Positions 8,677-32,736 of a stretch of 33,540 nt of DNA are shown piece after piece. The DNA is from Sulfuritalea sp. (lineage in GTDB: Bacteria > Pseudomonadota > Gammaproteobacteria > Burkholderiales > Rhodocyclaceae). The position numbers and the translations under genes were made by a program. The notes under the pieces are model-generated. The model searched no databases. It was not told where the DNA came from and saw only the letters and a list, made by a program, of their open reading frames with translations. The stretch spans positions 1 to 33,540 of the forward strand of contig JADYZH010000193.1 in assembly GCA_020853215.1 (NCBI GenBank), in the 5' to 3' direction. Position 1 is the stretch's first letter. Each line of letters begins with the position of its first letter.

Positions 8677-9744
8677 ATGAATGCGACGGTGAGCGTTGAC
8701 CTGCTGGCCACTCTGCAACCGTTGATGTCACTGGGCAACAAGGGGCTCAGCGAATTGCTGCCGCTGTGCCGCACCCATGTTTTCACGCGGGCCACCGATC
8801 CGTTTTCCGCCGCCGACTGGAGCGGGCAGGTCGTCTATCTGGTGCGGGGCCAGCTTCTCGTGAAGCTGTTGGACGGCCCGTCGCGCGTGCTGGTCGGCGG
8901 CCATGATCTGGCGGCGGCCCCGGTGGCGCGTGGCGGATACGCCCCGCGTTTCAGCAAGGCGATCACCGATGTCGAATTGCTCAGCCTGGAGGAGGATCCC
9001 CTGGACATCGTGGTGACCTGGAATCAGCTGGCCAGTTCGCGACACCTGGAAAAGGGTGCGGCCGACCAGACCGATTGGCGCATGATGTCGAGCATGTTTG
9101 CGGTGGACAACCTGACGGTCGGCGCGTTTGCGTCCCTGCCACCGGCAAACATCCAGGCGCTCCTTGGAAAGTTTGTCCGGGTTCCGGCAAGGCGCGGCGA
9201 GACGATCATCAGGCAGGGAGATCCGGGCGATTACTATTACCTTATCGAGAGCGGGCGCTGCAAGATTTCCCGGATGGTCGCCGGAGCTTCGGTGCAACTG
9301 GCCGAGATCAAGGAAGGCGATGCTTTCGGCGAAGAGGCCCTGGTTGCCGATACGGTACGCAATGCGACCGTGGTGATGAATACGGACGGCATGCTGCTGC
9401 GCCTGTCCAAACAGGACTTCAACCAGCTGCTGCTCGCGCCGCTTCTGCAGAAAGTGACCGGCGACGAGGCCGAGCGGCGGATTGCCGCCGGAGCGCAATG
9501 GATAGACGTGCGCTTCCCGGCCGAATACCAGAGCGATGGCTATCCCGATGCCATCAACATTCCACTCAACGACATTCGACCGGCGGCTGCGGCGCTTGAC
9601 CCTGCAATCGAATACATTGTGTATTGCCAGACGGGACGTCGCAGTTCCGCCGCCGCATTCTTGCTTTCCCAGCGTGGCCTGCATGCTACCCTCCTCGAAG
9701 GCGGCATGCGGGGGTACGCCGGTATCCTGGAGTCACACGAATGA
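8677..9744 (+). CDS. Cyclic-nucleotide-binding protein with C-terminal rhodanese domain
   Basis: The protein has 355 residues from ATG 8677, two bases after the preceding stop. It has two cNMP-binding-like domains followed by a rhodanese domain. The first (about 15-120) is degenerate. The second (about 140-265) has a good phosphate-binding cassette, 'FGEEALVADTVRNATV', with Glu219 and Arg228 spaced as in CRP-type domains, so cAMP or cGMP binding is plausible. The rhodanese part (about 270-350) ends with the active-site loop 'YCQTGRRSS' (Cys317), suggesting a reactive persulfide or regulatory thiol. No DNA-binding helix-turn-helix is present, so it is not a CRP-type transcription factor. As the gene after the cyclase and phosphodiesterase, it is the likely cAMP effector. 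Its target is unknown. Confidence 0.88.
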   Translation: MNATVSVDLLATLQPLMSLGNKGLSELLPLCRTHVFTRATDPFSAADWSGQVVYLVRGQLLVKLLDGPSRVLVGGHDLAAAPVARGGYAPRFSKAITDVELLSLEEDPLDIVVTWNQLASSRHLEKGAADQTDWRMMSSMFAVDNLTVGAFASLPPANIQALLGKFVRVPARRGETIIRQGDPGDYYYLIESGRCKISRMVAGASVQLAEIKEGDAFGEEALVADTVRNATVVMNTDGMLLRLSKQDFNQLLLAPLLQKVTGDEAERRIAAGAQWIDVRFPAEYQSDGYPDAINIPLNDIRPAAAALDPAIEYIVYCQTGRRSSAAAFLLSQRGLHATLLEGGMRGYAGILESHE

Positions 9745-12119
9745 ATGCCGCCCCTGCCGCGCCCGCCGAAGCCCCGGCGTCCGATGTTGATAACCGCCTG
9801 GCTTTCTTCAAGAACCTTCAGGTCGTCACCAACAAGGTTCACGCCACCGCCAACATCGACGAAATCATGCTGGAGCTGTCCGGCGAAATCTGCAGCCTGT
9901 TCAACGCCGACCGCCTGACGATCTATTCGATCGGCGAGGACAAAGCCTCGATCGTCTCGAAAATCAAGACCGGCCTGACATCGTTCAAGGACCTGCGCCT
10001 GCCGATCGCCGACCAGAGCATCGCCGGCCATGTCGCGCTGGCCAAGAAGACGGTGAACATCCGCGACGTCTACGACGATGCGGAGCTCAAGGCGATCAAT
10101 CCTTCCTTGCGCTTCCTGCAGGAGGTGGACAAGCGTACCGGCTACCGGACCAAGCAGATGCTGGTGGCGCCGGTCGTCGACGCGCAGAGCAACGAGTTGC
10201 TGGGCGTCGTCCAGCTGATCAACAACAAGGCGGGAACTCCGTTTGCGGCAGTTGCCCAGGAGGGCGTCAAGGGTCTGTGCGAAACCCTCGCCATCGCCTT
10301 CGCCCAGCGCAGCAAGCCGGCTGCCGCCGTCAAGACCAAGTACGACTTCCTCGTCTCCGATGCCGTCATTTCCGCTCAGGAAATGGAGCTGGCGACCCGT
10401 ACCGCGCGACGCAAGAACCTCTCCATCGAAGAAGTTCTGGTCAACGAATTCCAGGTCAAGCACGAGGCTCTGGGTGCCGCACTGGGCAAGTTCTTCAATG
10501 TGCCGTATGAATCGTTCAAGTCAGACCGTGTCAAGCCCGCCGACCTGTTGAAGAACCTCAAGCGCGAGTTCCTCGACCAGGGCAAATGGGCGCCGGTGGA
10601 GGAAAGTTCCGAAGGCATCATGGTGGTCTGCCTGGATCCCGAGCAGGTCAAGGGTTCTCGCATCGTCAACAACATTTTCCCGCGCGGCAAGATCCAGTAC
10701 CGGGTGACCACCAACCACGAGTTCGCGCTGACCCTCGACCTGCTGTTCGGCGCCACCGGCGTTCCCGGCTATACCGATGACAGTTCCGTCGGCGATCTGC
10801 TGTCCACCCTCGATGAAGGCGAGATGGATGGTGAAGGCGCCGTCGGCGATGATGTCTCCGCCGCGGCCGACAACGAGCTGGTCAAGTTGGTCAACAAGAT
10901 CATCGTCGACGCCTACCAGATGGGCGTGTCCGATATTCACATCGAACCGGGCCTGGGCAAGGACAAGGTGCTGATCCGCTTCCGGCGGGATGGCTCGTTG
11001 CAGAAGTACATCGAAGTTCCGGCCAGCTACCGCAATGCCATGGTGGCCCGCCTCAAGATCATGTGCGACCTGGATATCGCCGAGCGCCGCAAACCGCAGG
11101 ACGGCAAGATCAAGTTCAAGAAGTTCGGTCCGCTGGACATCGAACTGCGGGTGGCGACCATTCCTTCCACCGGCGGCGTCGAAGACGTCGTGATGCGCAT
11201 CCTCGCTGGTGGCGAGCCGATCCCGCTGGACAAGCTGGGTGTGCTGCCGGCCAATCTGATCAAGCTCAAGGCGACCATTTCCAAGCCTTACGGACTGTTT
11301 TTCGTCTGCGGTCCCACCGGTTCCGGCAAGACCACGACACTGCACTCGGTACTCGGCTATCTCAATACCGTGGATACCAAGATCTGGACCGCGGAAGATC
11401 CGGTTGAAATCACCCAGAAGGGCTTGCGCCAGGTGCAGGTGAACAAGAAGGTGATGGATTTTCCGATGGTGATGAAGGCCTTCCTGCGAGCCGACCCGGA
11501 CATCATCATGGTCGGCGAAATGCGCGATGCCGAAACTACCGGCATTGGCATCGAGGCCTCGCTGACGGGCCACCTAGTGTTTGCCACCCTGCACACCAAT
11601 AGCGCCCCGGAATCGATCATCCGGCTGCTCGACATGGGCATGGACCCCTTCAACTTCTCCGATGCCCTGCTCGGTATCCTCGCCCAGCGCCTGGCCAAGC
11701 GCCTGTGCAAGTGCAAGGAGACCTATACGCCGGATGCCGACGAAGTCAGGCTGTTCATGAAGGAGTATTGCAGCGAGCTGGAGAATACCGAGACTTTCAA
11801 GAAGGACATCAAGGCCGCCTACGCCGCGACCCAGGAACGCCTGATCAAGGAGTACGGCAAGGATGGCCACCTTGTATTCACCCGGGCCAAGGGCTGCGAC
11901 ACCTGTGGCGGCAGCGGCTACAAGGGGCGCGTCGGCCTGCACGAGCTGATGATCGGCACCGAGCCGATGAAAAAGCTGATTCAGGAACATGCCCGCGTCG
12001 CCCAGTTGTTCGCACAGGCGCTTGAGGACGGCATGCTGACCCTGAAGATGGACGGCCTGGAGAAGGCCCTGCAAGGGGTGACTGATCTCAAGCAGGTGAG
12101 GGCTGTCTGCATCAAGTAA
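9741..12119 (+). CDS. GAF-domain PilB/GspE-type secretion/pilus assembly ATPase
   Basis: The protein has 792 residues. ATG 9741 overlaps the upstream TGA in an ATGA junction and GGAG lies about 9 bases upstream, so this start is favoured over the ORF-track start. Order: GAF domain (about 25-190), MshEN-like T2SSE N-domain (about 200-310), then the type II/IV secretion ATPase (about 375-770). The ATPase shows 'SDIHIEPG', Walker A 'GPTGSGKTTT' (from residue 524), Walker B region 'IIMVGEMRDAET' and the His box 'GHLVFATLHTN'. It also has a zinc tetracysteine formed by 'CKCKETY' and 'CDTCGGSGY'. This is a PilB/GspE extension ATPase with an added small-molecule sensor. The MshEN repeats lack the RLG signature that binds c-di-GMP. 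No pilC or pilD lies nearby. Confidence 0.92.
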   Translation: MNAAPAAPAEAPASDVDNRLAFFKNLQVVTNKVHATANIDEIMLELSGEICSLFNADRLTIYSIGEDKASIVSKIKTGLTSFKDLRLPIADQSIAGHVALAKKTVNIRDVYDDAELKAINPSLRFLQEVDKRTGYRTKQMLVAPVVDAQSNELLGVVQLINNKAGTPFAAVAQEGVKGLCETLAIAFAQRSKPAAAVKTKYDFLVSDAVISAQEMELATRTARRKNLSIEEVLVNEFQVKHEALGAALGKFFNVPYESFKSDRVKPADLLKNLKREFLDQGKWAPVEESSEGIMVVCLDPEQVKGSRIVNNIFPRGKIQYRVTTNHEFALTLDLLFGATGVPGYTDDSSVGDLLSTLDEGEMDGEGAVGDDVSAAADNELVKLVNKIIVDAYQMGVSDIHIEPGLGKDKVLIRFRRDGSLQKYIEVPASYRNAMVARLKIMCDLDIAERRKPQDGKIKFKKFGPLDIELRVATIPSTGGVEDVVMRILAGGEPIPLDKLGVLPANLIKLKATISKPYGLFFVCGPTGSGKTTTLHSVLGYLNTVDTKIWTAEDPVEITQKGLRQVQVNKKVMDFPMVMKAFLRADPDIIMVGEMRDAETTGIGIEASLTGHLVFATLHTNSAPESIIRLLDMGMDPFNFSDALLGILAQRLAKRLCKCKETYTPDADEVRLFMKEYCSELENTETFKKDIKAAYAATQERLIKEYGKDGHLVFTRAKGCDTCGGSGYKGRVGLHELMIGTEPMKKLIQEHARVAQLFAQALEDGMLTLKMDGLEKALQGVTDLKQVRAVCIK

Positions 12120-12128
12120 GGAAGGGCC

Positions 12129-13757
12129 ATGGATAGCTCCAGCGACCTGTTTCGCCGTCTCGAACAACTGAACGCCATTGGCGCCGCGCTCTCCAAGGAG
12201 CGCGACATCAATCGCCTGCTCGAGAGCATCCTGATTGCGGCCAAGACCATCACCCATGCCGATGGCGGAACCCTGTATCGCATGACCGAGGATGGTCGTG
12301 CGTTGCGCTTCGAGATCCTGCGTACCGATTCCCTGCACATCGCCATGGGTGGCACTACCGGCAATCCCATCAACTTCCCCAACCTGCCGCTGTACAACGA
12401 CAACGGCGAATCCAACGACTCGATGGTCGCCGCCTACGCCGCCATCCACGACAAGACGGTCAACATCACCGATGCCTACACCGAGGCCGGCTTCGATTTT
12501 TCCGGCACCCGCAGTTTCGACGAGCGCACCGGGTATCGCTCCCAGTCCTTTCTCACGGTGCCGATGAAGAACCATGAGGGCGAGATCATCGGCGTGCTGC
12601 AGCTGATCAACGCCCAGAATCCGGCAACGCGCCAGGTGATCCCGTTTTCCTCGGCCGACCAGAGCCTGGCCGAATCACTGGCCTCGCAGGCGGCGATCGC
12701 GCTCACCAACCGGCTCTTGATCAGTCAGCTGGAAGAACTCTTCGAGGCCTTCATCAATCTGATCAACCTGGCGATCGACGAGAAGTCGCCATATACCGGC
12801 GGCCATTGCCAGCGCGTGCCGACCCTGACCATGATGCTCGCGGAGGCAACCGACACGACGCGGGAGGGGCCGCTGGCATCGTTCCACATGGACGAGCGCG
12901 ATCGCTACGAACTGAAGATCGCCGGCCTGCTGCATGACTGCGGCAAAGTCACGACGCCCGTTCATGTGGTCGACAAGGCCACCAAGCTGCAGACCATCTT
13001 CGATCGCATCCACCTGATCGATACCCGCTTCGAGGTCCTCAAGCGGGATGCGGAGATCCACGCGCTGCGCAGGCAGCTGGCCTTGCGCGAAAGCATTCTC
13101 GATACCGCAGCCGAGGCGAATATCTGGCAGGAATACCAGGACCAGGCACAGTTACTCGATGCCGAGCGCACCTTCCTGCGCCAAACCAACATCGGCGGCG
13201 AGGCGATGAGGGAAGACGACCAGCAGCGCGTGCGCGATATCGGCAGCCGGCGCAAGTGGCGTAATGTCGATGGCGTCGAAACCGAGTTCCTCACCGCCGA
13301 CGAGATCGACAACCTGACCATTCGCGCCGGCACGCTGACGATGAAGGAACGCGATGTCATCAACCACCACATCGTCGCCACCATCAAGATGCTGGAGCAA
13401 CTGCCGTGGCCGCGGCACCTGACCAAGGTGCCGGAATATGCCGGCGGCCACCACGAGCGGATGGACGGCAAGGGCTATCCCAAGGGTCTGACCCGCGAGC
13501 AGATGTCCCTCCAGGCACGCATGATGGGGATCGCCGACATTTTCGAGGCGCTGACGGCGCGCGACCGCCCCTACAAGCCGGGCATGAAACTGTCGCAGGC
13601 GATGGGCATCATGGCCAACTTCAAGAAGAACGGCCACATCGACCCCGACCTGTTCGACGTCTTCGTCAGGCAGGGCGTCTACCGGCGCTACGCCGAGCAG
13701 TTCCTCGACCCGGCGCAGATCGATGCGGTGGATGAGGCGGCACTCGTACGGACTTGA
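12129..13757 (+). CDS. GAF-HD-GYP cyclic di-GMP phosphodiesterase
   Basis: The 542-residue protein has a GAF domain (about 20-200) and a C-terminal HD-GYP domain (about 215-530), with no membrane segment. The GAF domain resembles that of the preceding ATPase gene ('DERTGYRSQSFLTVPMKN' versus 'DKRTGYRTKQMLVAPVVD'). Catalytic motifs are complete: 'TGGHCQRV', 'LLHDCGKV' (His269, Asp270), 'INHHIV', 'GGHHERMDGKGYPKGL' with GYP at 449-451, and 'ADIFEALTARDRPY'. c-di-GMP hydrolysis is therefore expected. About 130 residues of helical, charged sequence separate the HD motif from the next histidine motif, longer than in typical members. GGAAGG precedes the ATG. It appears to be the last gene of the signalling operon, though no terminator is visible after it. 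Confidence 0.94.
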   Translation: MDSSSDLFRRLEQLNAIGAALSKERDINRLLESILIAAKTITHADGGTLYRMTEDGRALRFEILRTDSLHIAMGGTTGNPINFPNLPLYNDNGESNDSMVAAYAAIHDKTVNITDAYTEAGFDFSGTRSFDERTGYRSQSFLTVPMKNHEGEIIGVLQLINAQNPATRQVIPFSSADQSLAESLASQAAIALTNRLLISQLEELFEAFINLINLAIDEKSPYTGGHCQRVPTLTMMLAEATDTTREGPLASFHMDERDRYELKIAGLLHDCGKVTTPVHVVDKATKLQTIFDRIHLIDTRFEVLKRDAEIHALRRQLALRESILDTAAEANIWQEYQDQAQLLDAERTFLRQTNIGGEAMREDDQQRVRDIGSRRKWRNVDGVETEFLTADEIDNLTIRAGTLTMKERDVINHHIVATIKMLEQLPWPRHLTKVPEYAGGHHERMDGKGYPKGLTREQMSLQARMMGIADIFEALTARDRPYKPGMKLSQAMGIMANFKKNGHIDPDLFDVFVRQGVYRRYAEQFLDPAQIDAVDEAALVRT

Positions 13758-13895: not shown

Positions 13896-16322
13896 ATGTG
13901 GAGTCTGTTTCGTCTGCTCGACGACGGATGTCGCGTCGAAGTGCTGGATGTCGGTGCATCCCTTGCCAGTACGGCCCCGTACCAGAAGCTGGTGGAGACG
14001 GGGCGTGCCCGCGTCACCGGCTTCGAGCCGAACGAGGCGGAATATGAACGACTGCGCTCGAGCTACGGGCTGACGCACCGTTTCTATCCGCTGTTCGTCG
14101 GTGACGGCAAGGAAGCCACTTTCCATGAGACCAACAACCCTTTTACCGGCTCGTTGTATGAGCCGAATACGCCATTGCTGGAAAAGTTCCATGCCTTGGC
14201 CTCGCTGGTAACGCCGGTTGCCGAGCACCGCGTCGCCACTACCTGTCTTGACGACATTGCCGACCTGGGCGATATCGATTTCATCAAGATCGACGTGCAG
14301 GGAGCGGAACTCGACGTGCTGCGCAATGGCCAACGGATCCTGCAGGGCGTGCTGGCGATCCAGACCGAAGTAAATTTTCTCGAGCAGTACCATGGTCAGG
14401 CGATGTTTTCCGACCTCGATGCCTTTCTGCGAGCCAATGGCTTCCAGTTTCACTGCGTGCTTGGCTACGGCTGGCGCCCCTTTCTTCCCCTGCTCAATCC
14501 CCGTGCCGGTGTCAAGGCGTTCAACCAGCAGGTGTGGGCCGACGCGGTTTATGTGCGGGACTGGATGCAACTTGACCGCCTTTCTGCGGAGAAACTGGAG
14601 AAGTATGCTGGAATCATGCACGACCTCCTGAATTCCTTTGACTTGGCCCATGTGGCACTGGTCGAAGCGGATCGGCGCACGGGCCGGTCGCTGGCGCAGG
14701 AATACCGGCGCCGCCTGGTGCGGGATGGCTTGGCCATTGTCGATCAGCCAAGCTCTGGCGACGCGGCCGGGTCGCTTGCAGGCAAGGACAGCAAGGCTGG
14801 ATCTGGGACCTCGTCGCCGATTTCTGCTACGGTAGCGGCGGAGAATCCAGACAACTCGCTGGTGCTGGAAACGGAAAGCGGCCTGTGTGTTTCGGTTCCG
14901 GCATCGCTCACGTGCATCTCCACTTATGTGCTTCTGGAGCAGGAACGCTGGTTCGAGAAGGAGGTGGATTTCGTCGTTCGCTACCTCGCCGACGGCATGA
15001 CCGCCATCGACATCGGGGCCAACGTCGGCCTGTACAGCCTGGCCATGGCGAAGGCCGTCGGGCCGACAGGAAGGGTCTGTGCGTATGAGCCGGGGACCGT
15101 CAATCGGCAGCATCTGGAACGAAGCATCGAGCTCAACAAAGTAGCAAATATCGAATTGTCGGCCGCGGCCTTGTCGGACCGGGAGAAGAGCGGCTGGTTG
15201 CGGATTGCGGGCAGCGGCGAACTCAATTCGATTGTCGAGGCGGATGAAGACGGCGCCGAGTACGTTGAAATCTCATCGCTCGACGCGCAGACACGGCGCT
15301 TCGGCTGGACGGGGATGGATTTCATCAAGATCGATGCAGAAGGCCAGGAGGCACGGATCGTGGCGGGCGGCAGGGAGTTCTTCCATTCCTTTTCGCCGGT
15401 GGTGATGTACGAAATAAAGCACGGCGCGACCAACAACAATGCCCTGCGCTGGACCTTCGAAGCGCTGGGATACGAAACCTACCGCCTCATCGGGGACGGT
15501 TCCCTGCTGGTTCGCCTCGGCGACGATGAGCAACTCGATACGTTCGAGCTCAATCTGTTCGCCATCAAGCCCGATCGTGCGCGGGAGCTGGCGCGCCGGG
15601 GTTTGCTGGTTTTCGCTCCGGCAGAGATCTCCCTGTCGCCAGCCGAGCGGGATGCGGTGCTGAAAAAAATGTTCGATCTGCCCTATGCGCAGACCTTCGG
15701 AATTTCGGCGGACGATATCGACGCATGCCCGTTTGGCGAAGGCTTGACGGCGTATGCGACATGGCTTTTTCTCGATCCTGCAATACCGGAGCGGCGCTAC
15801 GCTGCGCTGCGGCAGGCGTTCCAGCTGCTCAGGGATTACAGCAACGCGCAACTCAATCCCGCGGCCCTGTCCACGCTGGGGCGCATTGCCCAGGACATCG
15901 GCTATCGTGGCGTTGCCGTCGCTGCACTCGGAGAACTGATGGCGATGCGCGATACCGGCATCGACCAGCCTTTCTTTCCGGCTGCCAGGCGCTTCGAACA
16001 GATGCGCCCTGACGGCCATGAAGACCGCTGGTTTATTGCAGCGGCAAGCGAACAAATCGAACTTGTCGGCGCCTACTCTTCGATGCTCAAGGGCGATGAC
16101 CTGCATTCGCAGGTAACGCAGATTGCGCGCCTGAGGCTGCTTTGTGGCGAACCATGGGCATCGGTCGCGATGTTGAGGCGAGCGATCCTGATGGGGGTGG
16201 AGCAGGGTATCCCGCGCCGGGATATTGCCTCGTGGCACGTGCAGTTGCTGGCGCAGCAGACCAGAAACCTGCATGTATGGGGTGCGTATGGAAACGGGAT
16301 GGACCCGCTCTTTGAAGGCTAG
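13896..16322 (+). CDS. Tandem FkbM-family methyltransferase with helical C-terminal extension
   Basis: The 808-residue protein contains two FkbM-type SAM-dependent methyltransferase domains. The first (about 10-235) has 'VEVLDVGAS' and 'IDFIKIDVQGAELDVLR'. The second (about 340-560) has 'TAIDIGANVGLYSLAMA', 'CAYEPG' and 'MDFIKIDAEGQEARIV'. The first domain lacks the usual GANxG loop (GASLAST instead) and may be divergent or inactive. The last 240 or so residues are helical with no recognised motif. FkbM enzymes O-methylate sugars or natural products. AGGA precedes the ATG at 13896. It starts 138 bases after the HD-GYP gene and is followed by a glycosyltransferase-like gene and the pilin locus, so a role in surface glycan or glycoprotein methylation is inferred. 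Confidence 0.87.
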   Translation: MWSLFRLLDDGCRVEVLDVGASLASTAPYQKLVETGRARVTGFEPNEAEYERLRSSYGLTHRFYPLFVGDGKEATFHETNNPFTGSLYEPNTPLLEKFHALASLVTPVAEHRVATTCLDDIADLGDIDFIKIDVQGAELDVLRNGQRILQGVLAIQTEVNFLEQYHGQAMFSDLDAFLRANGFQFHCVLGYGWRPFLPLLNPRAGVKAFNQQVWADAVYVRDWMQLDRLSAEKLEKYAGIMHDLLNSFDLAHVALVEADRRTGRSLAQEYRRRLVRDGLAIVDQPSSGDAAGSLAGKDSKAGSGTSSPISATVAAENPDNSLVLETESGLCVSVPASLTCISTYVLLEQERWFEKEVDFVVRYLADGMTAIDIGANVGLYSLAMAKAVGPTGRVCAYEPGTVNRQHLERSIELNKVANIELSAAALSDREKSGWLRIAGSGELNSIVEADEDGAEYVEISSLDAQTRRFGWTGMDFIKIDAEGQEARIVAGGREFFHSFSPVVMYEIKHGATNNNALRWTFEALGYETYRLIGDGSLLVRLGDDEQLDTFELNLFAIKPDRARELARRGLLVFAPAEISLSPAERDAVLKKMFDLPYAQTFGISADDIDACPFGEGLTAYATWLFLDPAIPERRYAALRQAFQLLRDYSNAQLNPAALSTLGRIAQDIGYRGVAVAALGELMAMRDTGIDQPFFPAARRFEQMRPDGHEDRWFIAAASEQIELVGAYSSMLKGDDLHSQVTQIARLRLLCGEPWASVAMLRRAILMGVEQGIPRRDIASWHVQLLAQQTRNLHVWGAYGNGMDPLFEG

Positions 16323-16358
16323 GAGACTGGCTTGCCGGTATGAGTCCGCTTGAATCAT

Positions 16359-16362
16359 GGAG
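16359..16362 (+). promoter_or_regulatory. Shine-Dalgarno favouring the second ATG of the glycosyltransferase-like gene
   Basis: GGAG lies 9 bases upstream of ATG 16372, while the first in-frame ATG at 16357 has no purine-rich site before it. The start is therefore set at 16372. Confidence 0.5.
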
Positions 16363-16371
16363 CAAGCACGA

Positions 16372-17445
16372 ATGACCTGGACCGAGCACCGCCGGCAGGA
16401 ATTGACGCAGCGCCTGGCTGCTCTGTTCAAGGTGCCTCAGGTGCGTTTTGTTTTCCTGCCGTCGGTCGCTGCCGCACCCATCAAGTATTTTCCCGAACCA
16501 GCCTTGATCGAGCGGGATCTGCGCGAATTCGCTCCGGATCCCTTCGTGTTCTCGCCTTGGCGGGACGGTAAACCGGATGCCGCAATTGACGTCGTTATCG
16601 TGACCGGAGTGGGCGATGACTGTTCCCCGGCCTTGTGGCGCATCCGGGAGCAGGTCGGCCCGCAAGCGATTATTGCCCTGTGGTTGTGGGACAACCACTG
16701 GGCATGGCCGCAGAACCTGCGCTCGATCATGGCGGCCGATCTGATCTTCGTCAGTCATGGCAGTCCGGACCATACCGGCTATCTGCGCACGCCAGTGGCA
16801 CTGCTGGCGGGCCATATAGCGGCCTGCTCGGCGCAGTGGGCCCGCGCCCAGGCAGGCGAATTGGGCGACATCGTGCAGCGTGCCGAACGCCAGCACAAGG
16901 CGCTGATCAATTACGTCGACTACGGTTTTGCCTGGAGCGAGCGAACACGGATTCTCAAATCCTATGCGGCGGACCTGGCTGATGCCGATGTATTCCTGAT
17001 GCCGCCGGACGATCGCTCGCGCTATTTTTCCCTATCGCCCATGGAGCGGTTTGCCGAGTGGTGTCGCTACAAGGCAACGATCGTCATACCCATCCGCGAC
17101 GACTTGTCCACCCGGGTGTTCGATGCCTTGCTTGCCGGCCTGATTCCTATCGTGCCGCATTCCATCACCGATCTCGACCGCATCATTCCGGCCGGAGACC
17201 AGGAGCGTCTCGGCATCGTCAGGATCGATTCGCTTGAGTTGCCGACCGCGGCGGTTGCCGTGCGGGAAGCGCTGCGGCGCTTCGAACAGCAGGGAACGGA
17301 GGGTATCATGGCCCGCTTCCACTATGCCCTTGACCGGCACATGCTGGTCAATCGGGTGACCGAGATGCTGTTTCACGTCTGGCAACTGGGCACTGGCGCC
17401 CGCTCGATCCGGTACCGAGCAGAGCGAGGCCTGTACGCCGACTGA
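16372..17445 (+). CDS. Putative glycosyltransferase (GT-B-like)
   Basis: The protein has 357 residues from ATG 16372 (362 if ATG 16357 is used). No firm family match can be made by eye. The C-terminal half resembles GT-B/exostosin-like or CgeB-like glycosyltransferases: 'DVFLMPPDDRSRYFSLSPMERFAEWCRYKATIVIP', then 'RDDLSTRVFDALLAGLIPIVP', a typical donor-site pattern with an (R/E)-FDAL-AG-IP core. The N-terminal half has a Rossmann-like 'AIDVVIVTGVGDD' and 'IIALWLWDNHWAWPQN'. No membrane helices or signal peptide are seen. It sits between the FkbM methyltransferase and the pilin promoter, so glycan assembly is likely. The sugar and acceptor are unknown. Confidence 0.62.
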   Translation: MTWTEHRRQELTQRLAALFKVPQVRFVFLPSVAAAPIKYFPEPALIERDLREFAPDPFVFSPWRDGKPDAAIDVVIVTGVGDDCSPALWRIREQVGPQAIIALWLWDNHWAWPQNLRSIMAADLIFVSHGSPDHTGYLRTPVALLAGHIAACSAQWARAQAGELGDIVQRAERQHKALINYVDYGFAWSERTRILKSYAADLADADVFLMPPDDRSRYFSLSPMERFAEWCRYKATIVIPIRDDLSTRVFDALLAGLIPIVPHSITDLDRIIPAGDQERLGIVRIDSLELPTAAVAVREALRRFEQQGTEGIMARFHYALDRHMLVNRVTEMLFHVWQLGTGARSIRYRAERGLYAD

Positions 17446-17481: not shown

Positions 17482-17504
17482 GTGACCTTTTTGGTCACAT
17501 TTTT
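17482..17504 (+). terminator. GTGACC/GGTCAC hairpin upstream of pilA, possible terminator
   Basis: A perfect 6-bp inverted repeat GTGACC-TTTTT-GGTCAC is followed by ATTTTT. Its position 36 bases after the glycosyltransferase stop suits an intrinsic terminator, though the stem is short. It could instead be an operator for an activator of the sigma-54 promoter about 45 bases downstream. Confidence 0.5.
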
Positions 17505-17546: not shown

Positions 17547-17562
17547 TGGCACAGGTCTTGCT
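17547..17562 (+). promoter_or_regulatory. Sigma-54 (RpoN) promoter of the pilin genes
   Basis: TGGCACAGGTCTTGCT matches the -24/-12 consensus TGGCAC-N5-TTGCW. GG and GC are separated by exactly 10 bases. The element ends 47 bases before the pilin ATG. Type IV pilin genes are commonly transcribed by sigma-54 with a PilS/PilR two-component system. No pilSR genes are in this window. Confidence 0.88.
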
Positions 17563-17609: not shown

Positions 17610-17795
17610 ATGAAAAAGACAGTGCAAAAAGGTTTCACCCTGATCGAGCTGATGATCGTCGTGGCGATTATCGGCATTCTCGCAGCGATCGCGATTCCGC
17701 AATTCAGCGAGTACACCAAGAAGGGTGAGGACAAGGCCGCCCAGTCCGATGCCAAGAACCTGCTGACCCAGGCCACGGCGAACTCGACAATCTGA
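17610..17795 (+). CDS. pilA: Short type IV pilin, N-terminal helix only (PilA-N-like)
   Basis: The 61-residue prepilin has a short basic leader, MKKTVQKG, then the prepilin peptidase site [25 protein letters not shown] with Glu5, all canonical for type IVa pilins. The mature form would be 53 residues: the N-terminal helix ending near '[12 protein letters not shown]', without any globular head or disulfide loop. Normal type IVa pilins have about 140-160 residues. It aligns well with the Geobacter short pilin around 'AAxSDxxNL'. Of the aromatic positions in that pilin, only Phe1, Phe24 and Tyr27 are kept. AGGAG lies 6 bases upstream. No continuation of a pilin head is seen past the stop in other frames, so a recent frameshift is unlikely. 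Confidence 0.93.
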
Positions 17796-17820
17796 TTTCC
17801 AGAAAACTAGGAGTGATCTT

Positions 17821-18186
17821 ATGAAAAAAGTGATTCTTACTGCGGTCTTGGCGTCTGCTGCGATTTCTAGCATGAGTGCCAATGCGGCGAGTGGCACCGC
17901 GGTGATTTGCACTGGCAATTCGACCGCTGCCGCTGGCAATGCCGTGACCACGGCGACGGACACCTTCGTCAAGGTGTCGTTCACGCCCAAGTGCTCGGCC
18001 AATGTCCATATGGTGGATAACGATCAGAACACTTATTATGGGGTTGGTTCCGGTTCCACCAAGGGCAAGACCTTCTGGGTGGGATCCACAGCGGGCGGCA
18101 GCATCTCCAAGCAAGCCGATTGCGCTGCAACGGGATGCACCTCGGCCGGTGCGGCGACCGCCGCTGCGGCCGCCCCATCGAGCTGA
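17821..18186 (+). CDS. Secreted Ser/Thr-rich four-cysteine protein, candidate pilin head partner (PilA-C-like)
   Basis: The 121-residue protein has a classical Sec signal peptide, MKKVILTAVLASAAISSMSANA, with an ANA|AS cleavage site after residue 22. The mature 99 residues contain four cysteines (30, 58, 101, 106), enough for two disulfides. They include 27 Ser/Thr residues by my count, a short aromatic patch (YY at 72-73, FW at 85-86) and an Ala-rich tail. I do not recognise a database family by sequence. The gene starts 26 bases after the short pilin with its own AGGAG and shares its sigma-54 promoter. By position, size and export signal it parallels the Geobacter PilA-C partner (GSU1497) of the short pilin. 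The pilin-head role is inferred. Confidence 0.75.
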   Translation: MKKVILTAVLASAAISSMSANAASGTAVICTGNSTAAAGNAVTTATDTFVKVSFTPKCSANVHMVDNDQNTYYGVGSGSTKGKTFWVGSTAGGSISKQADCAATGCTSAGAATAAAAAPSS

Positions 18187-18207
18187 TTTGTAGCCGGGCA
18201 TCAAAAT

Positions 18208-18238
18208 GGGCGCGCCTTGCGGTGCGCCCGTTTTTTTT
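18208..18238 (+). terminator. Rho-independent terminator after the two pilin genes
   Basis: GGGCGCGCC-TTGC-GGTGCGCCC forms a 9-bp stem with one G-T pair, followed by G and eight T residues. A and T runs on either side extend it. It should let the two pilin genes be expressed far more strongly than the ABC genes, which begin 22 bases later. Confidence 0.9.
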
Positions 18239-18259: not shown

Positions 18260-19063
18260 ATGCTGCAATTCCTGCTTTCAGGTCTCAAGGTCGGCTTGCG
18301 CGGCCGCAGCTTCCAGGCGGTCTTCCTTCTTGGTTTGCTGCTGATCGGCGCCGCCTATCTGTCGGGCCATTTCTCGCCCCGGCAACCGCGTACTGTGGCG
18401 CTTGACGTCGGTTTCTCGGGAGTTCGGATCACCCTGGTCCTGCTGGCGCTGTTCTGGATTCAGGAATTGGTCACGCGCGAAATCGATCGCCGCATCATTC
18501 TGTTTTCACTGACCTACCCGGTGTCGCGCGCCGCCTTTCTGTTCGGCCGATACGCGGCAATTCTCGTTCTGGTCTGCCTCGCCGCCGTGATACTCGGCTT
18601 GTCCTTGCTACTTGCAGTGATACTGACCGGCGGCGACTATTCTCAGGAGTTTCCGGTTCGACTGGGCCTGCCCTTTTGGGCCACTATAGGCGGTCTGGTT
18701 CTTGACGTGGCTGTGGTCGCCGCTGTCGGCCTGTGGATGGCGACCTTATCCACCGTGGCCGTCATGCCGTTGGCCATCGGCTTCTGCTTCGCCGTGGCAG
18801 GCAAGGCGCTCGGCGCGACGCTAGACTATCTGACGCGCGGTGCCGACGGGGACGCTGCGCTGATCGCCTCGATCGGACCGTTCATCGATGTCATCCGCTG
18901 GCTGGTTCCCGATCTGTCGCGGCTCGACTGGCGGCAGTGGCCGATGTATGGACTGATGCCCGCCGGCGGCGATGCCATGTGGCCGGCCATCATGGCGCTT
19001 GCCTACGCGGCCATTTTGATCCTGTTTGCCATCCGTGCATTGTCTCACCGTGAATTTTCCTGA
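18260..19063 (+). CDS. ABC-2 type transporter permease
   Basis: The 267-residue polytopic membrane protein has about six hydrophobic segments, starting with 'FQAVFLLGLLLIGAAYLSG' and ending with 'MALAYAAILILFAIRAL'. 'ELVTREIDRRIILFSLTYPVSRAAFLFGRYAAILVL' is the coupling-helix pattern of ABC-2 permeases, which have a conserved (E/D)-R-tolerant cytoplasmic segment. No strong ribosome site is seen, but an in-frame stop just upstream makes ATG 18260 the first possible ATG. Its ATPase is encoded two genes downstream, with a membrane-anchored protein between them. The gene order after pilA suggests a pilus-linked ABC system like PilGHI of Myxococcus xanthus (inferred). Confidence 0.85.
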   Translation: MLQFLLSGLKVGLRGRSFQAVFLLGLLLIGAAYLSGHFSPRQPRTVALDVGFSGVRITLVLLALFWIQELVTREIDRRIILFSLTYPVSRAAFLFGRYAAILVLVCLAAVILGLSLLLAVILTGGDYSQEFPVRLGLPFWATIGGLVLDVAVVAAVGLWMATLSTVAVMPLAIGFCFAVAGKALGATLDYLTRGADGDAALIASIGPFIDVIRWLVPDLSRLDWRQWPMYGLMPAGGDAMWPAIMALAYAAILILFAIRALSHREFS

Positions 19064-19892
19064 ACGACATATTCGCGAGCTGGTCTTCTGGGGTCTCCTA
19101 CTTGGTGCCGGCCTTGCCTATGTTGGCGCGCAGCGCAACATCCAGCCGCGAAACAATGAGACTGCCGACCCCGAATTGCTGGTCAGCCTGCCCCTGGCGG
19201 CGCAAGTCTTGATGGCGGTCGGGGATCGCAACCTTGCTGCCAATCTGGCCGGATTTCGCGTTCTAGTTGCCGACACACTGCGCATGAACGCCAGTGACTT
19301 TGCCGTGCAGGGCAGGCTGCAGCACGATATCGCATGGCTTAATCCGGTGCACGAGGACAACTACTACATTGCCGCCGCCCTGTTGCCATGGAACGGACAG
19401 CTCGAGGCAGCGCAGTTCGTTTTGCGCCATGCATCCGAAACTCGTACCTTCGACTACCAACCAGTCTTCTATTATGCGTTCAACATCTATCATTTCCGGC
19501 GCGACCCGGCCGCGGCTGCGCAATTGCTGCTAGATGCGGCCAACCGCCCGATCGAGCAGCAGGATCAATGGGCGCTGCAGAATCTAGCCGCGCGCTGGCT
19601 GGAGCAAGGCTACCAGACGGGCACCGCCGCGACCCTGGTCGATGCGATGGCGAAGAACGCACCGCCCGGCGGCTTCAAGAAATACCTCGGCCTGCGCGCC
19701 CAGCGCCTGCGCGATCTTGCGCACCTGCAGGAACTGGCGCTGCAATATCGCGCCACGGCCGGTCGCGACCTGGGCGATCTGCAGGAACTGGTGGCAGCCG
19801 GCCTGATCGACGCCATACCGAGGGATCCGATAGGCTTCGGCTACACTGTCGGCCCGAACGGGGAACCCATGCTGAAGACGACGGCAAAATAG
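19050..19892 (+). CDS. Membrane-anchored helical protein of the pilus-linked ABC cluster
   Basis: The protein has about 280 residues from GTG 19050. The ORF track starts at TTG 19026, and GTG 19035 is also possible. It overlaps the permease gene by 14 bases. One N-terminal signal-anchor helix, 'ELVFWGLLLGAGLAYVGAQ', is followed by an extracytoplasmic, largely helical domain with TPR/Sel1-like helical pairs: 'EDNYYIAAALLPWNGQLEAAQFVLRHA', 'RDPAAAAQLLLDAANRPIEQ' and 'GYQTGTAATLVDAMAK'. A proline-rich C-terminal end reads 'IPRDPIGFGYTVGPNGEPM', similar to substrate-strand ends of some exported proteins. I do not recognise a named family. Between an ABC permease and its ATPase it is likely an accessory subunit, possibly the PilG-position protein of a PilGHI-like system. 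Confidence 0.72.
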   Translation: MNFPERHIRELVFWGLLLGAGLAYVGAQRNIQPRNNETADPELLVSLPLAAQVLMAVGDRNLAANLAGFRVLVADTLRMNASDFAVQGRLQHDIAWLNPVHEDNYYIAAALLPWNGQLEAAQFVLRHASETRTFDYQPVFYYAFNIYHFRRDPAAAAQLLLDAANRPIEQQDQWALQNLAARWLEQGYQTGTAATLVDAMAKNAPPGGFKKYLGLRAQRLRDLAHLQELALQYRATAGRDLGDLQELVAAGLIDAIPRDPIGFGYTVGPNGEPMLKTTAK

Positions 19893-19894
19893 CC

Positions 19895-20806
19895 ATGGCC
19901 GAAGCCATCACCATCCGCTCGCTCGACAAGACCTACGCCAGTGGCTGGCGCCGCAATCCCGTCCATGCCGTACGCAATGTCTCACTGTCGGTCGCCGAGG
20001 GCGAGGCCTTCGGTTTCATCGGTCCCAACGGCGCAGGAAAGAGCACGACTATCAAGGTCCTGATGGGCCTGGCCGAACCGAGCGGTGGAGAGGCCTTGCT
20101 GTTCGGCGTGCCGAGTACCGAGCCGCAGGCACGCCGCCGTCTCGGCTACGTGCCCGAGAATCCCTATCTCTACGATTACCTGACGCCGTTTGAAATCCTC
20201 AAGATGGGGCTGCGCCTGCATCGCACCGTCGTCGCCGACGAGAACGCCCACTGCCGGCGCTGGCTGGAGCGGATGGAACTGGCTGCGGTCGCCGATTCGC
20301 CAATCCGCTCGTTTTCGAAAGGCATGACGCAGCGCGTGGCGATCGCCCAGGCCTTGGTGATCCAGCCGCACCTGCTCGTGCTGGATGAGCCTCTGTCGGG
20401 TCTCGATCCGATCGGGCGCCAGGATGTGGTCGAAATCTTTTCGGAATACAAACGTGGCGGCGGCACGCTTTTTTTTACATCCCACGTTCTGCATGACGTC
20501 GAGCGGTTGGCGGACCGTTTTGGCCTGATCCATCAGGGCGAGCTGCGCTCGGTCAGTTCGCCGGCGGAGCTCGCTGGGGAGGAAGAATCGGTAATGGTTC
20601 GCTCCCAGGGGGGACAGGAGGTGCATGGCATGCAGGCGGAAACCGTCGGCCGCTGGTGCGGTACGTTTCCGCGCTCCGTCTTGTGGGAGAAACTCGATCA
20701 GATCCGCGCCGCAGGGCATTCGATCGTCGAAGTGCGCCCGACGCTTTCCCTTGAGCTTGCATTCCTGAAAGCCATCGGTAAGACCGGCAGCGATGTCGGA
20801 GGCTGA
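19895..20806 (+). CDS. ABC transporter ATP-binding protein
   Basis: The protein has 303 residues from ATG 19895, two bases after the previous stop. The longer ORF-track version would run through that gene. Walker A is 'GPNGAGKST' (43-51), the signature is 'FSKGMTQR' in place of LSGGQ (the form common in ABC-2/NosF-like ATPases), Walker B is 'HLLVLDEPLSGLDP', and the H-loop is 'FFTSHVLHDVE'. A C-terminal extension of about 90 residues with 'MVRSQGGQEVHGMQAE' is typical of the same subgroup. It energises the permease two genes upstream. The end of the gene overlaps the next gene by 14 bases, tying the ABC system to the OGT glycosyltransferases. It is a positional counterpart of PilH (inferred). 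Confidence 0.92.
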   Translation: MAEAITIRSLDKTYASGWRRNPVHAVRNVSLSVAEGEAFGFIGPNGAGKSTTIKVLMGLAEPSGGEALLFGVPSTEPQARRRLGYVPENPYLYDYLTPFEILKMGLRLHRTVVADENAHCRRWLERMELAAVADSPIRSFSKGMTQRVAIAQALVIQPHLLVLDEPLSGLDPIGRQDVVEIFSEYKRGGGTLFFTSHVLHDVERLADRFGLIHQGELRSVSSPAELAGEEESVMVRSQGGQEVHGMQAETVGRWCGTFPRSVLWEKLDQIRAAGHSIVEVRPTLSLELAFLKAIGKTGSDVGG

Positions 20807-23240
20807 GTTGTCCGCCGACATCGCGCATCTCCTCGCGGAAGGTGATCGCCTGCGCGACGGGCAATGTCTTGCCGAGGCGATGGCAAGTTACGAACGCGTC
20901 ATCGATCTCGCGCCGTCCAGGCCGGAGGGCCACTACAAGCTTGGCACGGTGTACGGCCGCGCTGGGCGCAATGTCGATGCCGAGCAGTGCTATCGCCGGG
21001 CTCTGGAGCTGCAACGCGGGCACTTGGGCGCCTTGAACAACCTCGCCCTGATCTGTTTTTCCCAAGCGCGATTCGGCGAGGCCGAGGGCCTCTACCGGGA
21101 GATACTGGCCAACCGGACCGATCATGTCGAGGCGCACATCAACCTGGGCAACCTGCTTGCCGAGTCGGGTCGCGCCGATGAAGCGCTCTATCATTTCCGT
21201 CGGGCCACCGAATTGCGGCCGGATTCGGCGATTGCCCGTGAGCGGCTTGGCAGTATGCTGCGCAACTTTGGTCGTGTGGTAGAGGCCCTGGAGCAGATCG
21301 AACGCTCCCTGGAAATCGATCCGCGTTCGGCGGTGGCATGGAACAATCTCGGCGCTTGCCACTTCGTGCGCGGCGAGCACGCCGAGGCCGATCATGCGTT
21401 CGCCGAGTCGCTCGCGCTGGACGAGAACCAGGACGCGGCCTGGAACAACCGCCTCTTCCTGTCCAATCTGGTGACGCTAGAGCGCGACGAGACATTCCGC
21501 CGCCACCTGGCTTACGGCGCATGGCTGCGCCGTCGTTGCGGGCCAGCCGCGCTGGATCATTCGCGCCATGCCGCCGAGGCGACGCGCCGCCTGCGCATCG
21601 GTTTTGTTTCTGGCGATCTGCGGCATCACTCGGTGGCCTATTTTGTGCGCGGCTTTCTCGGACACCTCGATCGTTCGCAGTGCGAGACCTGGGCCTATTC
21701 GACCAGCCGCAAGACCGACGAACTGACCGCCGAACTGCGACCGCTGTTCCAGAACTGGCGGGATATTTTCGACATGGACGACGCAGCAGCCGTGCGGCTG
21801 ATGAACGACGACCGCATCGATATCCTGATCGACCTGGCTGGCCATACCAGCGACAACCGGCTGGCAATCTTCGGCCGTCGCGCGGCACCGGTCCAGGTTT
21901 CCTGGATCGGCTATCCTGCCACCACCGGTGTCGACAGCATCGATTACCGGATCACTGATGCACTGGCCGATCCAGCGGACGAGGATCAGCTTTATTACAC
22001 CGAGCGCTTGTGGCGGATGCCGGGCCCTTTCCTCTGCTTCAGCCCGCCGGTAGTTGCGCCGCAGGTAGAACCGCCGGCGGAAACAAGGGCGGGTCCGGTC
22101 ACTTTCGGTTCCTTCAATGCCCGCGTCAAGCTTGGCGCCGAGTGCCTTGACTTGTGGGTTCGCGTGCTGAACGAACTGCCGGAAGCACGCCTGCTGATCA
22201 AGTCGATCAACGGGGTCGAGGAGGTCGAGGCGAAGGAACAACTGGTCGCCGATTTCGTACGTCGTGGAGTTGCCGCCGAACGTGTCGAGGTTCTTTCGTC
22301 GATCCCCTCCACTGCAGAGCATCTGAAGCAGTATCAGCGCGTCGATATTGCCCTGGATGCTTTCCCCTATCACGGCACCACCACGACCTGCGAGGCGCTC
22401 TGGATGGGGGTGCCTGTAGTCACGCTGGGCGGCGACCGGCACGCGTCGCGTGTCGGCTGCAGTCTGCTGACCCATGCCGGCCTGCCCGAACTTATTGCGC
22501 ACTCGACGGACGAGTTTGTCGCAATTGCGTGCGCTCTGGCGCGTTCGCCGCAGCGCCTGGCGACGTATCGATCGGTGCTGCGGCAGCAAATGAGCGGCAG
22601 CGTCCTGCTCGATGCTGAATCGATGGCCCGCCGCTTCGAGTCGGTCATGCGCGGGATGTGGTTGCGCTATTGCGAGAGCGATGCGGCGCGGGCGGCGGGC
22701 ATAGCCGCTGCGAATGGATGGCCGACAAAAATGAAACTGCACATCGGCGGCAAACAGTTTCGCGAGGGATGGAAAATCCTCGATGTACAACCCGGCCCGA
22801 ACGTGGATTTTGTCGGTGATATACGCTCCCTGGAGGGATTTAGCGACGAGTCCTGCTCAGAGATCTACTGCTCGCATGTACTGCAGCACCTGCCGGTGAA
22901 TGACATCGTGCCTGCTCTCAAAAGTTTGCATCGCATCCTGGCACCGGGGGGACGCCTAATGATATCGGTGCCGGATTTCGACGTATTGGTTGCGCTTTTT
23001 CAGCGCAGTGACCTTGACCTCGCGCAACGCTTCCGCATCATGCGCATGGTCTTTGGCGGGCAAATGGATCCCTTCGACTTCCATTGCGTCGGCCTGACTT
23101 TCGATTTTCTGGTCGGCTATCTTGCACAGGCCGGGTTTTCTAGCGTCGAGCAGGTCGAATCCTTCGACTTGTTTTCTGATGGCAGCAAGACTGATTTCGA
23201 TGGGACGCCGATTTCCCTCAACGTCATGGTCGGCAAGTAG
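20793..23240 (+). CDS. TPR-OGT (SPINDLY-type) glycosyltransferase fused to a SAM-dependent methyltransferase
   Basis: The protein has 815 residues. N-terminal TPR repeats (about 5-235) include 'PEGHYKLGTVYGRAGRNVDAEQCYRRAL' and 'AHINLGNLLAESGRADEALYHFRRA'. The GT41/O-GlcNAc-transferase catalytic region (about 265-620) has 'LRIGFVSGDLRHHSVAYF', 'DILIDLAGHTSDNRLAIFGRRAAPVQVSWIGYPATTG' and 'LDAFPYHGTTTTCEALWMGVPVVTLGG'. A C-terminal methyltransferase-like domain (about 645-815) has 'WKILDVQPGPNVDFVGDIRSL', 'SEIYCSHVLQHLP' and 'ILAPGGRLMISVPDFD', as in type-11 SAM methyltransferases. OGT enzymes add a sugar to Ser/Thr of proteins in the cytoplasm, so this one may glycosylate and methylate. It overlaps the ABC ATPase gene by 14 bases. 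Confidence 0.9.
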   Translation: MSEAELSADIAHLLAEGDRLRDGQCLAEAMASYERVIDLAPSRPEGHYKLGTVYGRAGRNVDAEQCYRRALELQRGHLGALNNLALICFSQARFGEAEGLYREILANRTDHVEAHINLGNLLAESGRADEALYHFRRATELRPDSAIARERLGSMLRNFGRVVEALEQIERSLEIDPRSAVAWNNLGACHFVRGEHAEADHAFAESLALDENQDAAWNNRLFLSNLVTLERDETFRRHLAYGAWLRRRCGPAALDHSRHAAEATRRLRIGFVSGDLRHHSVAYFVRGFLGHLDRSQCETWAYSTSRKTDELTAELRPLFQNWRDIFDMDDAAAVRLMNDDRIDILIDLAGHTSDNRLAIFGRRAAPVQVSWIGYPATTGVDSIDYRITDALADPADEDQLYYTERLWRMPGPFLCFSPPVVAPQVEPPAETRAGPVTFGSFNARVKLGAECLDLWVRVLNELPEARLLIKSINGVEEVEAKEQLVADFVRRGVAAERVEVLSSIPSTAEHLKQYQRVDIALDAFPYHGTTTTCEALWMGVPVVTLGGDRHASRVGCSLLTHAGLPELIAHSTDEFVAIACALARSPQRLATYRSVLRQQMSGSVLLDAESMARRFESVMRGMWLRYCESDAARAAGIAAANGWPTKMKLHIGGKQFREGWKILDVQPGPNVDFVGDIRSLEGFSDESCSEIYCSHVLQHLPVNDIVPALKSLHRILAPGGRLMISVPDFDVLVALFQRSDLDLAQRFRIMRMVFGGQMDPFDFHCVGLTFDFLVGYLAQAGFSSVEQVESFDLFSDGSKTDFDGTPISLNVMVGK

Positions 23241-23246
23241 GCGCGA

Positions 23247-25184
23247 ATGGGAAGACGGAGCCGATCTGCGAAGGGCCAGGGGCATCTCTCCGCAGAGATG
23301 CTCGGCCTAATGCGCTTGGTCGAAACCCGTCGTTACGACGAGATCGAGCAGGCGGCGCGGCGGGTGTTAGCGCGCAATCGGGGGCAGGCCCAGGCGCTCA
23401 AGATTCTGTCTTTCGCCCTTGTCGGCAAGGGACAGTACAAGGATGCCCTACCCATGCTGGAGGATCTTGCCCGGAAATATCCGCGCGATCCCGAGATCCA
23501 GAATAACCTGGGCATAGCCTTGTCCGCCCATTTGCGTTGGCGCGAGTCGGTGGAGTGTTTTGAGCGTGCGTTGGCCATCAGTCCCGGCGACCCGGAACTG
23601 CTGAAGAATCTCGGTGCCGCCTATGCGGACGATAAGCGCTGGAACGAGGCAGTGCCTTGGTTGCTCAAGGCCATCGAACAGCATCCGGGCGACTACGTCG
23701 AGGCAATAAGTCTGCTAGGCGCTTGCCTGATGAATGCGAACCGCATCGAAGAGGCGAGGGCCTGCTACAGAGAACTGTGGAGTGCCGACCCGGATGATGT
23801 CGCGGCCTTGTACCAGTTGGCTTTCGCTGACCTCCGGCTTTGTGATTGGGGGCATCTTGATGAGCAGGTCAGATTGCTGCGAGAGCGAAATCCCGGGTTC
23901 AAGCGTGCGCTTGATGCACCCTTTCCCGCCTTCAGCATGGCCGGCTTCAACGGCATGGACCAGCGCCTGATTGCCGAAGCGCATGCCCGCAATGTCATTT
24001 CGCCCTATGTCTATCAGGCGGGCGCCGAATGGCAGGCACCGGAAGCCCCTTCCAGCCCGCGCCGGCTGAAGGTTGGCTACCTGTCGGCGGACCTTCGTTA
24101 CCATCCGGTCGGCTTCATTGTTCCCGAAGTCATTGAAAGACACGATCGCACCAGGGTTGAAGTTATAGCTTATTCGACGGGACCAGATGACGCCAGCGAC
24201 ATACGCCGCCGCCTGATGCGAGCGTTCGATCGCTTCGTTGATCTCAAGGCGGAGTCCATTCCGAAGATTGTCGACCGTATCCGGCAGGATGAGATTGATG
24301 TGTTGGTTGACCTGCAGGGATGGACAACGGACTGCAAGCCCGAAGTGTTGGCCCTGCGTTGTGCCCGCATCCAGGTGAACTGGCTGGGTTTTGCCGGCAC
24401 CATGGGCCATCCCGGACTGGCTGACTACATCATCGGGGACCCGGTGGTAACCCCGCTGGAACATTCCGGTTTTTATTCCGAGACGATTGCGCAGCTGCCT
24501 CACTGTTATCTTCCTGCCGATACGAGGCGTCAGTCAGGGCAGGTTCCGTCGCGCGCAGCGCAGGGCTTGCCGCAGGATGCGTTTGTCTTTTGTTCCCTCA
24601 ACAACAACTACAAATTCAATCCCGCGGGTTTCGATATCTGGTGCCGGCTGTTGCACGAAGTTCCGCATAGCGTGTTGTGGTTGACCCGTCCGAACGATAT
24701 GGCGGTAGCGAACCTTCGGCAAGAGTTCGCGCGCCACGGCCTCGCCCCTGAGCGCCTGATCTTCGCGGCTCGGGTGGAGAACCCCGCCGACCATCTGGCG
24801 CGTATCCAGCTCGCCGATCTTGCTCTCGACACTTTTCCCTACAACTCGCATTCCAGTGGAGTGGATGTCTTGTGGGCCGGGGTGCCGATGGTCGCCATTC
24901 TGGGCGATACCTTCTCCTCCAGGGTGGGCGCGAGCCTTCTCAAGGCAGCGGGGCTGGAAGATCTGGTGGCAACGAGCACGGCTGAATACTTCTCCACAGC
25001 ATTGGCTTGCGCGCGCGACCCGCAGGTCCTCTCTTCGTTGCGCGGGCGCCTTGCGGCGGGCCGCAAGCTTTCAAACCTTTTCGATATCGGCGCATTCACT
25101 CGTTCCCTGGAGGATCTTTTTTATCGCATGCATGACCAAACTGCGCGCGGAGCGAAGAGTCCATTGCCGGCGGTGACAGATTGA
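23247..25184 (+). CDS. TPR-OGT (SPINDLY-type) protein glycosyltransferase
   Basis: The protein has 645 residues and starts 6 bases after the preceding OGT gene, which it resembles in layout but without the methyltransferase. TPR repeats (about 20-215) include 'PEIQNNLGIALSAHLRWRESVECFERALAISPGDPELLKNLGAAYADDKRWNEAVPWLLKAI'. The GT41 region (about 274-630) has 'LKVGYLSADLRYHPVGF', 'DVLVDLQGWTTDCKPEVLALRCARIQVNWLGFAGTMG', 'FVFCSLNNNYKFNPAGFDIWCRLL' and 'LDTFPYNSHSSGVDVLWAGVPMVAILG'. These match the UDP-sugar and acceptor sites of bacterial OGTs. No signal peptide is seen, so it acts in the cytoplasm. Its target may be the nearby exported Ser/Thr-rich protein or the pilin (inferred). Confidence 0.92.
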   Translation: MGRRSRSAKGQGHLSAEMLGLMRLVETRRYDEIEQAARRVLARNRGQAQALKILSFALVGKGQYKDALPMLEDLARKYPRDPEIQNNLGIALSAHLRWRESVECFERALAISPGDPELLKNLGAAYADDKRWNEAVPWLLKAIEQHPGDYVEAISLLGACLMNANRIEEARACYRELWSADPDDVAALYQLAFADLRLCDWGHLDEQVRLLRERNPGFKRALDAPFPAFSMAGFNGMDQRLIAEAHARNVISPYVYQAGAEWQAPEAPSSPRRLKVGYLSADLRYHPVGFIVPEVIERHDRTRVEVIAYSTGPDDASDIRRRLMRAFDRFVDLKAESIPKIVDRIRQDEIDVLVDLQGWTTDCKPEVLALRCARIQVNWLGFAGTMGHPGLADYIIGDPVVTPLEHSGFYSETIAQLPHCYLPADTRRQSGQVPSRAAQGLPQDAFVFCSLNNNYKFNPAGFDIWCRLLHEVPHSVLWLTRPNDMAVANLRQEFARHGLAPERLIFAARVENPADHLARIQLADLALDTFPYNSHSSGVDVLWAGVPMVAILGDTFSSRVGASLLKAAGLEDLVATSTAEYFSTALACARDPQVLSSLRGRLAAGRKLSNLFDIGAFTRSLEDLFYRMHDQTARGAKSPLPAVTD

Positions 25185-32665: not shown

Positions 32666-32736
32666 AGAATCAGGACCCCAGCTTTTCCGCTTGCAATTTT
32701 TGATGAACCACACCGCAACCAAGGAGTAGAAAACAA

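Follow-up and report, generated by a model that had tools for sequence, protein, structure and literature searches.

We analyzed a 33,540-nt stretch of DNA from Sulfuritalea sp. (the window), in which two short forward-strand genes are flanked by a sigma-54 site on the 5′ side and a strong terminator on the 3′ side. The first gene (17610..17795) encodes a 61-aa short prepilin of PilA-N type and the second (17821..18186) encodes a 121-aa protein that we assign as a detached pilin head of PilA-C type. The intergenic gap is 25 nt, correcting the 26 bases given in a preliminary description of this DNA. The sigma-54 (RpoN) −24/−12 promoter (17547..17562, forward strand; TGGCAC-N5-TTGCT; TGGCACAGGTCTTGCT) has a perfect consensus and is located 63 nt upstream of the pilin’s ATG, as in an RpoN-dependent pilA operon. 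With one mismatch allowed, chance alone would yield one such site per window, but a comparable site with roughly equal spacing was found at 23 of 27 related loci. The unit is closed by an intrinsic terminator on the same strand (18203..18234), directly downstream of the head gene, with a 14-pair stem and a T tract. A small terminator-like hairpin (GTGACCTTTTTGGTCAC, 17482-17498) also follows the upstream gene, ahead of the sigma-54 promoter.

The short prepilin is of class III: it has an 8-residue leader (17610-17633), a G|FTLIE cleavage motif and Glu5, and its 53-residue mature part does not extend past the N-terminal helix. Judging from its sequence, the protein has no residues beyond the point at which an ordinary pilin continues into its globular head. 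The N-terminal methylation motif (PF07963 N_methyl, 40.8 bits versus a cut-off of 21.2) was its only match in Pfam and NCBIfam, with no globular-domain family detected. The aromatic residues of the mature part are limited to F1, F24 and Y27, and the larger aromatic set of conductive e-pilins is missing. The second protein carries a signal peptide (17821-17886) that would be cleaved after SANA, leaving a mature part of 99 aa, and contains four cysteines (C30, C58, C101 and C106). The preliminary description of a helix-only prepilin with three aromatic positions, followed by a Sec-signal protein with four cysteines, is thus borne out by both reading frames and their translations.

The head protein had no match in Pfam or NCBIfam, and none among plasmid records. 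It is conserved at the protein level in 75 of 399 Rhodocyclaceae genomes, and 27 aligned relatives are 35–58% identical to the window’s head; therefore, the gene is not a chance open reading frame.

We compared both proteins with PDB sequences. The prepilin’s top matches were all Geopilin domain 1 (PilA-N) chains (9egp_A, 4e-16; 7tgg_A, 7e-16; 2m7g/6vk9, 7e-14). A 28-sequence profile of heads close to the window’s own (alignment A1) found no match in the PDB sequences, and homology to PilA-C was detected when the profile was broadened to 49 sequences: the first of 177,635 PDB sequences was then 9egp_B, annotated ‘Geopilin domain 2’ (E = 4.1e-5; next unrelated sequence, 0.2). Because a signal-peptide artefact had to be excluded, we repeated the search with signal peptides removed, and 9egp_B was again ranked first (E = 0.0052), with the PilA-C chains of 6vk9 and 7tgg also listed. 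In a shuffle control, this mature-only profile scored 21.5 bits, compared to a maximum of 11.1 bits in 2000 shuffles. AlphaFold2 models of the full and mature head (pLDDT 82 and 80, respectively) were compared to known structures using Foldseek. The full model matched PilA4 of Thermus first and then 9egp_B from the Geobacter metallireducens pilus, while the mature model matched 9egp_B first; the PilA-C chains of 6vk9 and 7tgg, including that of G. sulfurreducens, were also present in the lists, though none of these structural matches is individually significant (E = 0.38 to 5). The two genes therefore independently point to two chains of the same PDB entries. By sequence comparison, the short pilin is homologous to PilA-N and the head is homologous to PilA-C.

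The codons for C30 (17908-17910) and C58 (17992-17994) delimit a putative first disulfide (17908..17994, forward strand), and both residues are invariant in alignment A1. Across 37 head1-type rows, head1 being the window’s type, the two cysteines share the same state in every case (both present in 28, both absent in 9), which matches the expectation for a disulfide. The codons for C101 and C106 (18121..18138, forward strand) delimit a putative C-terminal Cys loop that is conserved in most head1 rows. Cys30-Cys58 and Cys101-Cys106 probably form periplasmic disulfides. The head had been characterized beforehand as cysteine-containing, which holds for the four residues here but not as a defining feature; many homologous heads, including those of other families, have no first Cys pair, and we rejected the definition of the head by four cysteines.

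We found that the two genes occur as a pair with few exceptions. A protein search detected the head in 40 of 150 relatives, and a profile search of the 399 Rhodocyclaceae genomes detected 76 heads in 75 genomes, alongside 115 matches to the short pilin in 91 genomes. Seventy-three of the 76 heads are located directly behind a short pilin on the same strand, with the pilin 18–192 nt upstream as measured between alignment edges. In the three remaining cases, the pilin is broken by an assembly gap, the pilin lies inverted, as a fragment, on a short contig of Ca. Accumulibacter aalborgensis, or the head is a true orphan paralogue (G031:C72) whose genome contains a pair as well. Head homologues apart from short pilins, which would have spoken against the preliminary description’s two-piece pilin, are therefore confined to this one orphan.

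The short pilins showed the same association when followed in the opposite direction. There were 28 short-pilin matches without a nearby head1; they were pilins cut off at a contig end, accessory short pilins, three longer ones (114–123 aa) or loci with a second type of head (head2). We rejected the proposition that unpaired short pilins exist, as most candidates were cut by contig ends, were accessory pilins upstream or downstream of a main pilin, were long pilins, or were paired with head2; once the cut, accessory and long ones are set aside, those lacking head1 have the divergent head2 instead. Head2 is a more divergent exported Cys protein that begins 7–36 nt after the pilin, mostly with an ABC permease behind it, as is the case for head1. 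The head1 and head2 profiles align with 94% probability over 31 columns, and an iterative profile seeded with head1 retrieved 86 ORFs from 1539, all of them heads and none unrelated, including all but one of the head2 proteins.

The subtype of the pilin tracks that of the head (Mantel r = 0.80, in part reflecting phylogeny). All 12 pilins of the YRAK (RAK-type) class are paired with head2; two rows of the subtype table that read as TKK pilins with head2 are false text-pattern matches, and both are head1. One genome (G391) has both a head1-like unit and one with head2, and the pilin of each is of the corresponding type. In many relatives, a second, headless short prepilin of 56–65 aa is found shortly upstream of the main pilin (L022, L030-L033, L040, L142, L145, L146, L148, L149, L155, L156, L158 and L160); it is absent from the window. 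At L037, L039, L041 and L042, an extra short prepilin is instead located directly 3′ of the head gene.

We also searched 300 genomes of the order Burkholderiales. Close short pilins were found in 20 of them, mostly in further families, and nearly all are trailed by the same kind of head, which in these families may be without the first Cys pair. Tandem copies of the whole pilin-head unit are present in three genomes (G472, G553 and G677; L142/L161, L144/L160, L150 and L162). The pilin-head pair is widespread in Burkholderiales and its members are nearly always found together.

The distribution of full-length pilins is complementary to that of the pair. The PF00114 full-length pilin is present in 230 of the 399 Rhodocyclaceae genomes, but in only 9 of the 87 genomes with the pair (absent in 78), compared to 221 of the 312 genomes without it; these counts are not corrected for phylogeny, and PF00114 overlooks some full-length pilins. 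Single-contig genomes that contain the pair and no PF00114 match include G002, G047, G055, G082, G173 and G225. No PF00114 match was found in the pair itself or in the window’s own genome, which is a draft of 364 contigs (90% complete, 5% contamination), and this absence is therefore not absolute. The preliminary description had named a full-length major pilin elsewhere as evidence against it, and none was found by PF00114 either in the draft genome or among several pair-bearing relatives whose genomes are complete. Mostly, the pair takes the place of the full-length pilin across Rhodocyclaceae genera.

The own genome encodes PilQ and several longer prepilins (149–181 aa) of ComP/PilE-like and MSHA-like types. 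The 149-aa ComP/PilE-like prepilin is on contig C327 and adjoins a FimU-like gene, and two clusters look MSHA-like, with prepilins of 178–181 aa on contigs C7 and C266; the others belong to a T2SS set, apart from a few that are unplaced. The existence of these prepilins lends some credit to an arrangement where the pair forms a minor or accessory filament, for example for competence or as a pseudopilus, and one of the longer prepilins (on C327, or on C7/C266) is the major T4aP pilin. We consider this unlikely. The ComP/PilE-like gene has a FimU-like neighbor, an arrangement seen for minor pilins, while it is the pair that has the RpoN-type promoter and strong terminator and that replaces PF00114 pilins across the family. 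Moreover, the pilAB genes of Azoarcus are essential for pilus formation (PMC3262810).

The data instead supports reading the two genes as a split type IV pilin that is homologous to PilA-N/PilA-C of Geobacter and whose 1:1 helix-head complex is polymerized as the major pilin; we assign this reading a probability of about 0.87. The comparison with Geobacter had been proposed from the window alone, and is now sustained by profile homology of both pieces, the head’s best structural neighbors, the near-obligate pairing and the complementary distribution with full-length pilins. In the mechanism that we propose, RpoN, probably with PilR, would drive the pilin and head genes together. A prepilin peptidase would trim the short pilin, and Sec would export the head, whose disulfides would probably form in the periplasm. 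The head would then dock onto the membrane-embedded helix, at its C-terminal half, and so rebuild a pilin-like subunit, and the 1:1 complex would be polymerized by the ordinary T4aP machine. Co-expression by RpoN is read from the promoter sequence, and the later steps are modeled on Geobacter and Azoarcus BH72.

Alternatively, the head could be a periplasmic protein dedicated to chaperoning or assembling the short pilin, without a structural role, and the filament would consist of helices only. An obligate neighbor and an essential gene are equally expected for a chaperone, and the Geobacter head protein is also reported to be necessary for PilA stability (PMC5174107). However, Geopilin domain 2, to which the head is homologous, is a stoichiometric subunit of the Geobacter filament, where PilA-N and PilA-C are present in equal amounts (PMC12954529). 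The head’s best structural matches are the globular domains of pilins, and its sequence is secreted, prone to disulfides and quick to diverge, traits that are common in pilin heads exposed at the surface. A chaperone therefore appears quite improbable. Lastly, we rejected an electrically conductive pilus made of the short pilin only, with an unrelated head. Short pilins have been proposed as e-pili (PMC9207759), but this reading is highly implausible here, as the pilin has no aromatics beyond F1, F24 and Y27 and the head is homologous to PilA-C and co-conserved with the pilin.

Three forward-strand genes directly 3′ of the pair form a conserved ABC cassette. The first (18260..19063) encodes an ABC-2 type permease with sub-threshold Pfam ABC2 matches, possibly PilI-like, and is present at 22 of 22 named loci. 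The second (19026..19892) encodes a conserved protein without a Pfam match, possibly PilG-like, also at 22 of 22 loci. The third (19895..20806) encodes an ABC transporter ATPase (PF00005, E = 7.5e-30), possibly PilH-like, at 21 of 22 loci. In Myxococcus xanthus, the PilG/PilH/PilI ABC transporter set is required for type IV pili and needed for pilin translocation (PMC3724824). The cassette (18260-20806) may be a counterpart of PilGHI, as both are three-gene ABC sets linked to a pilin, a likeness of arrangement and gene type; it may aid insertion or export of the subunit, as proposed for the Myxococcus set.

Downstream of the cassette are two forward-strand TPR-GT41 (O-GlcNAc-transferase-like) genes (20793-23240 and 23247-25184; PF13844, E = 2.2e-49 and 2.7e-86, respectively), the first with a C-terminal methyltransferase domain. 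Homologues are also close to the pair at many Accumulibacter loci, and the two proteins are candidates for modifying the pilin or head. Just 5′ of the pilin (13896-17445), one gene product has two FkbM-like methyltransferase regions and another, of 362 aa, matches no Pfam family. Farther upstream (9741-13757), a GAF-MshEN-T2SSE ATPase gene adjoins a GAF-HD-GYP gene; the ATPase is PilB-like, below the PilB equivalog cut-off, and about 90% identical in several relatives, and the two genes could specify a c-di-GMP-linked pilus or secretion motor. At the window’s far end (31451-33210), sulfate adenylyltransferase and APS-reductase-beta-like genes, identified by eye, suggest sulfur oxidation.

The Geobacter system (GSU1496/GSU1497; geopilin domains 1 and 2; 6VK9, 7TGG and 9EGP) likewise encodes the head, which is beta-rich, as a second exported protein behind a short, helix-only prepilin. 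The pair here differs in several respects: its host belongs to another phylum, its pilin is without the extra aromatics of Geobacter PilA-N, and its head is strongly diverged from PilA-C, usually with one or two Cys pairs and with a GG turn motif that the aligned portion of Geobacter PilA-C does not show. At the loci compared here, the conserved ABC cassette also follows immediately behind the pair. In Azoarcus sp. BH72, a short prepilin gene (pilA) is co-transcribed with pilB, both are crucial for type IV pili, and a sigma-54 promoter was mapped in 1998 (PMC3262810); this is an experimental precedent among betaproteobacteria, which the preliminary description does not name. The order of short prepilin, second gene and sigma-54 promoter is the same as here, and its arrangement and family suggest that PilB is homologous to the head. 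The truncated pilins of Candidatus Accumulibacter were already listed by Shu et al. 2016, where, in the portion of the article available, head partners were sought in Geobacter only (PMC5174107); we found a head behind the short pilin at nearly every named Accumulibacter locus.

The PilA-N/PilA-C kind itself, the Azoarcus pilAB genes (1998) and the Accumulibacter short pilins (2016, with no heads in the available part of that study) are thus already known. We found no paper connecting PilA-C with Rhodocyclaceae and, as far as the literature found extends, the head family, its homology to PilA-C, the near-obligate pairing, the spread through Burkholderiales and the replacement of full-length pilins are new. 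We offer only tentatively, as a rather doubtful extension, that splitting yields a modular pilin in which a near-invariant helix is combined with interchangeable, fast-diverging heads (head1, head2 or tandem) and with upstream headless short pilins into a mixed headed and headless filament, with the ABC cassette and O-GlcNAc-transferase-like genes serving subunit delivery and decoration.

Previous discussion of split pilins has linked them to Geobacter and to conductive filaments. Taken together, the homology, pairing and distribution indicate a large, unrecognized branch of the PilA-N/PilA-C kind that is without the extra aromatics of the conductivity proposal. Candidatus Accumulibacter and Sulfuritalea are among the Rhodocyclaceae genera that have the split architecture, and further Burkholderiales families share it; this distribution uncouples ‘split’ from ‘conductive’. 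About a hundred pilin-head pairs are now on hand for co-evolution and co-folding analyses. For Azoarcus pilAB, the finding points to a likely function of the second gene, and it lends support to the idea that a short pilin operates jointly with a head.
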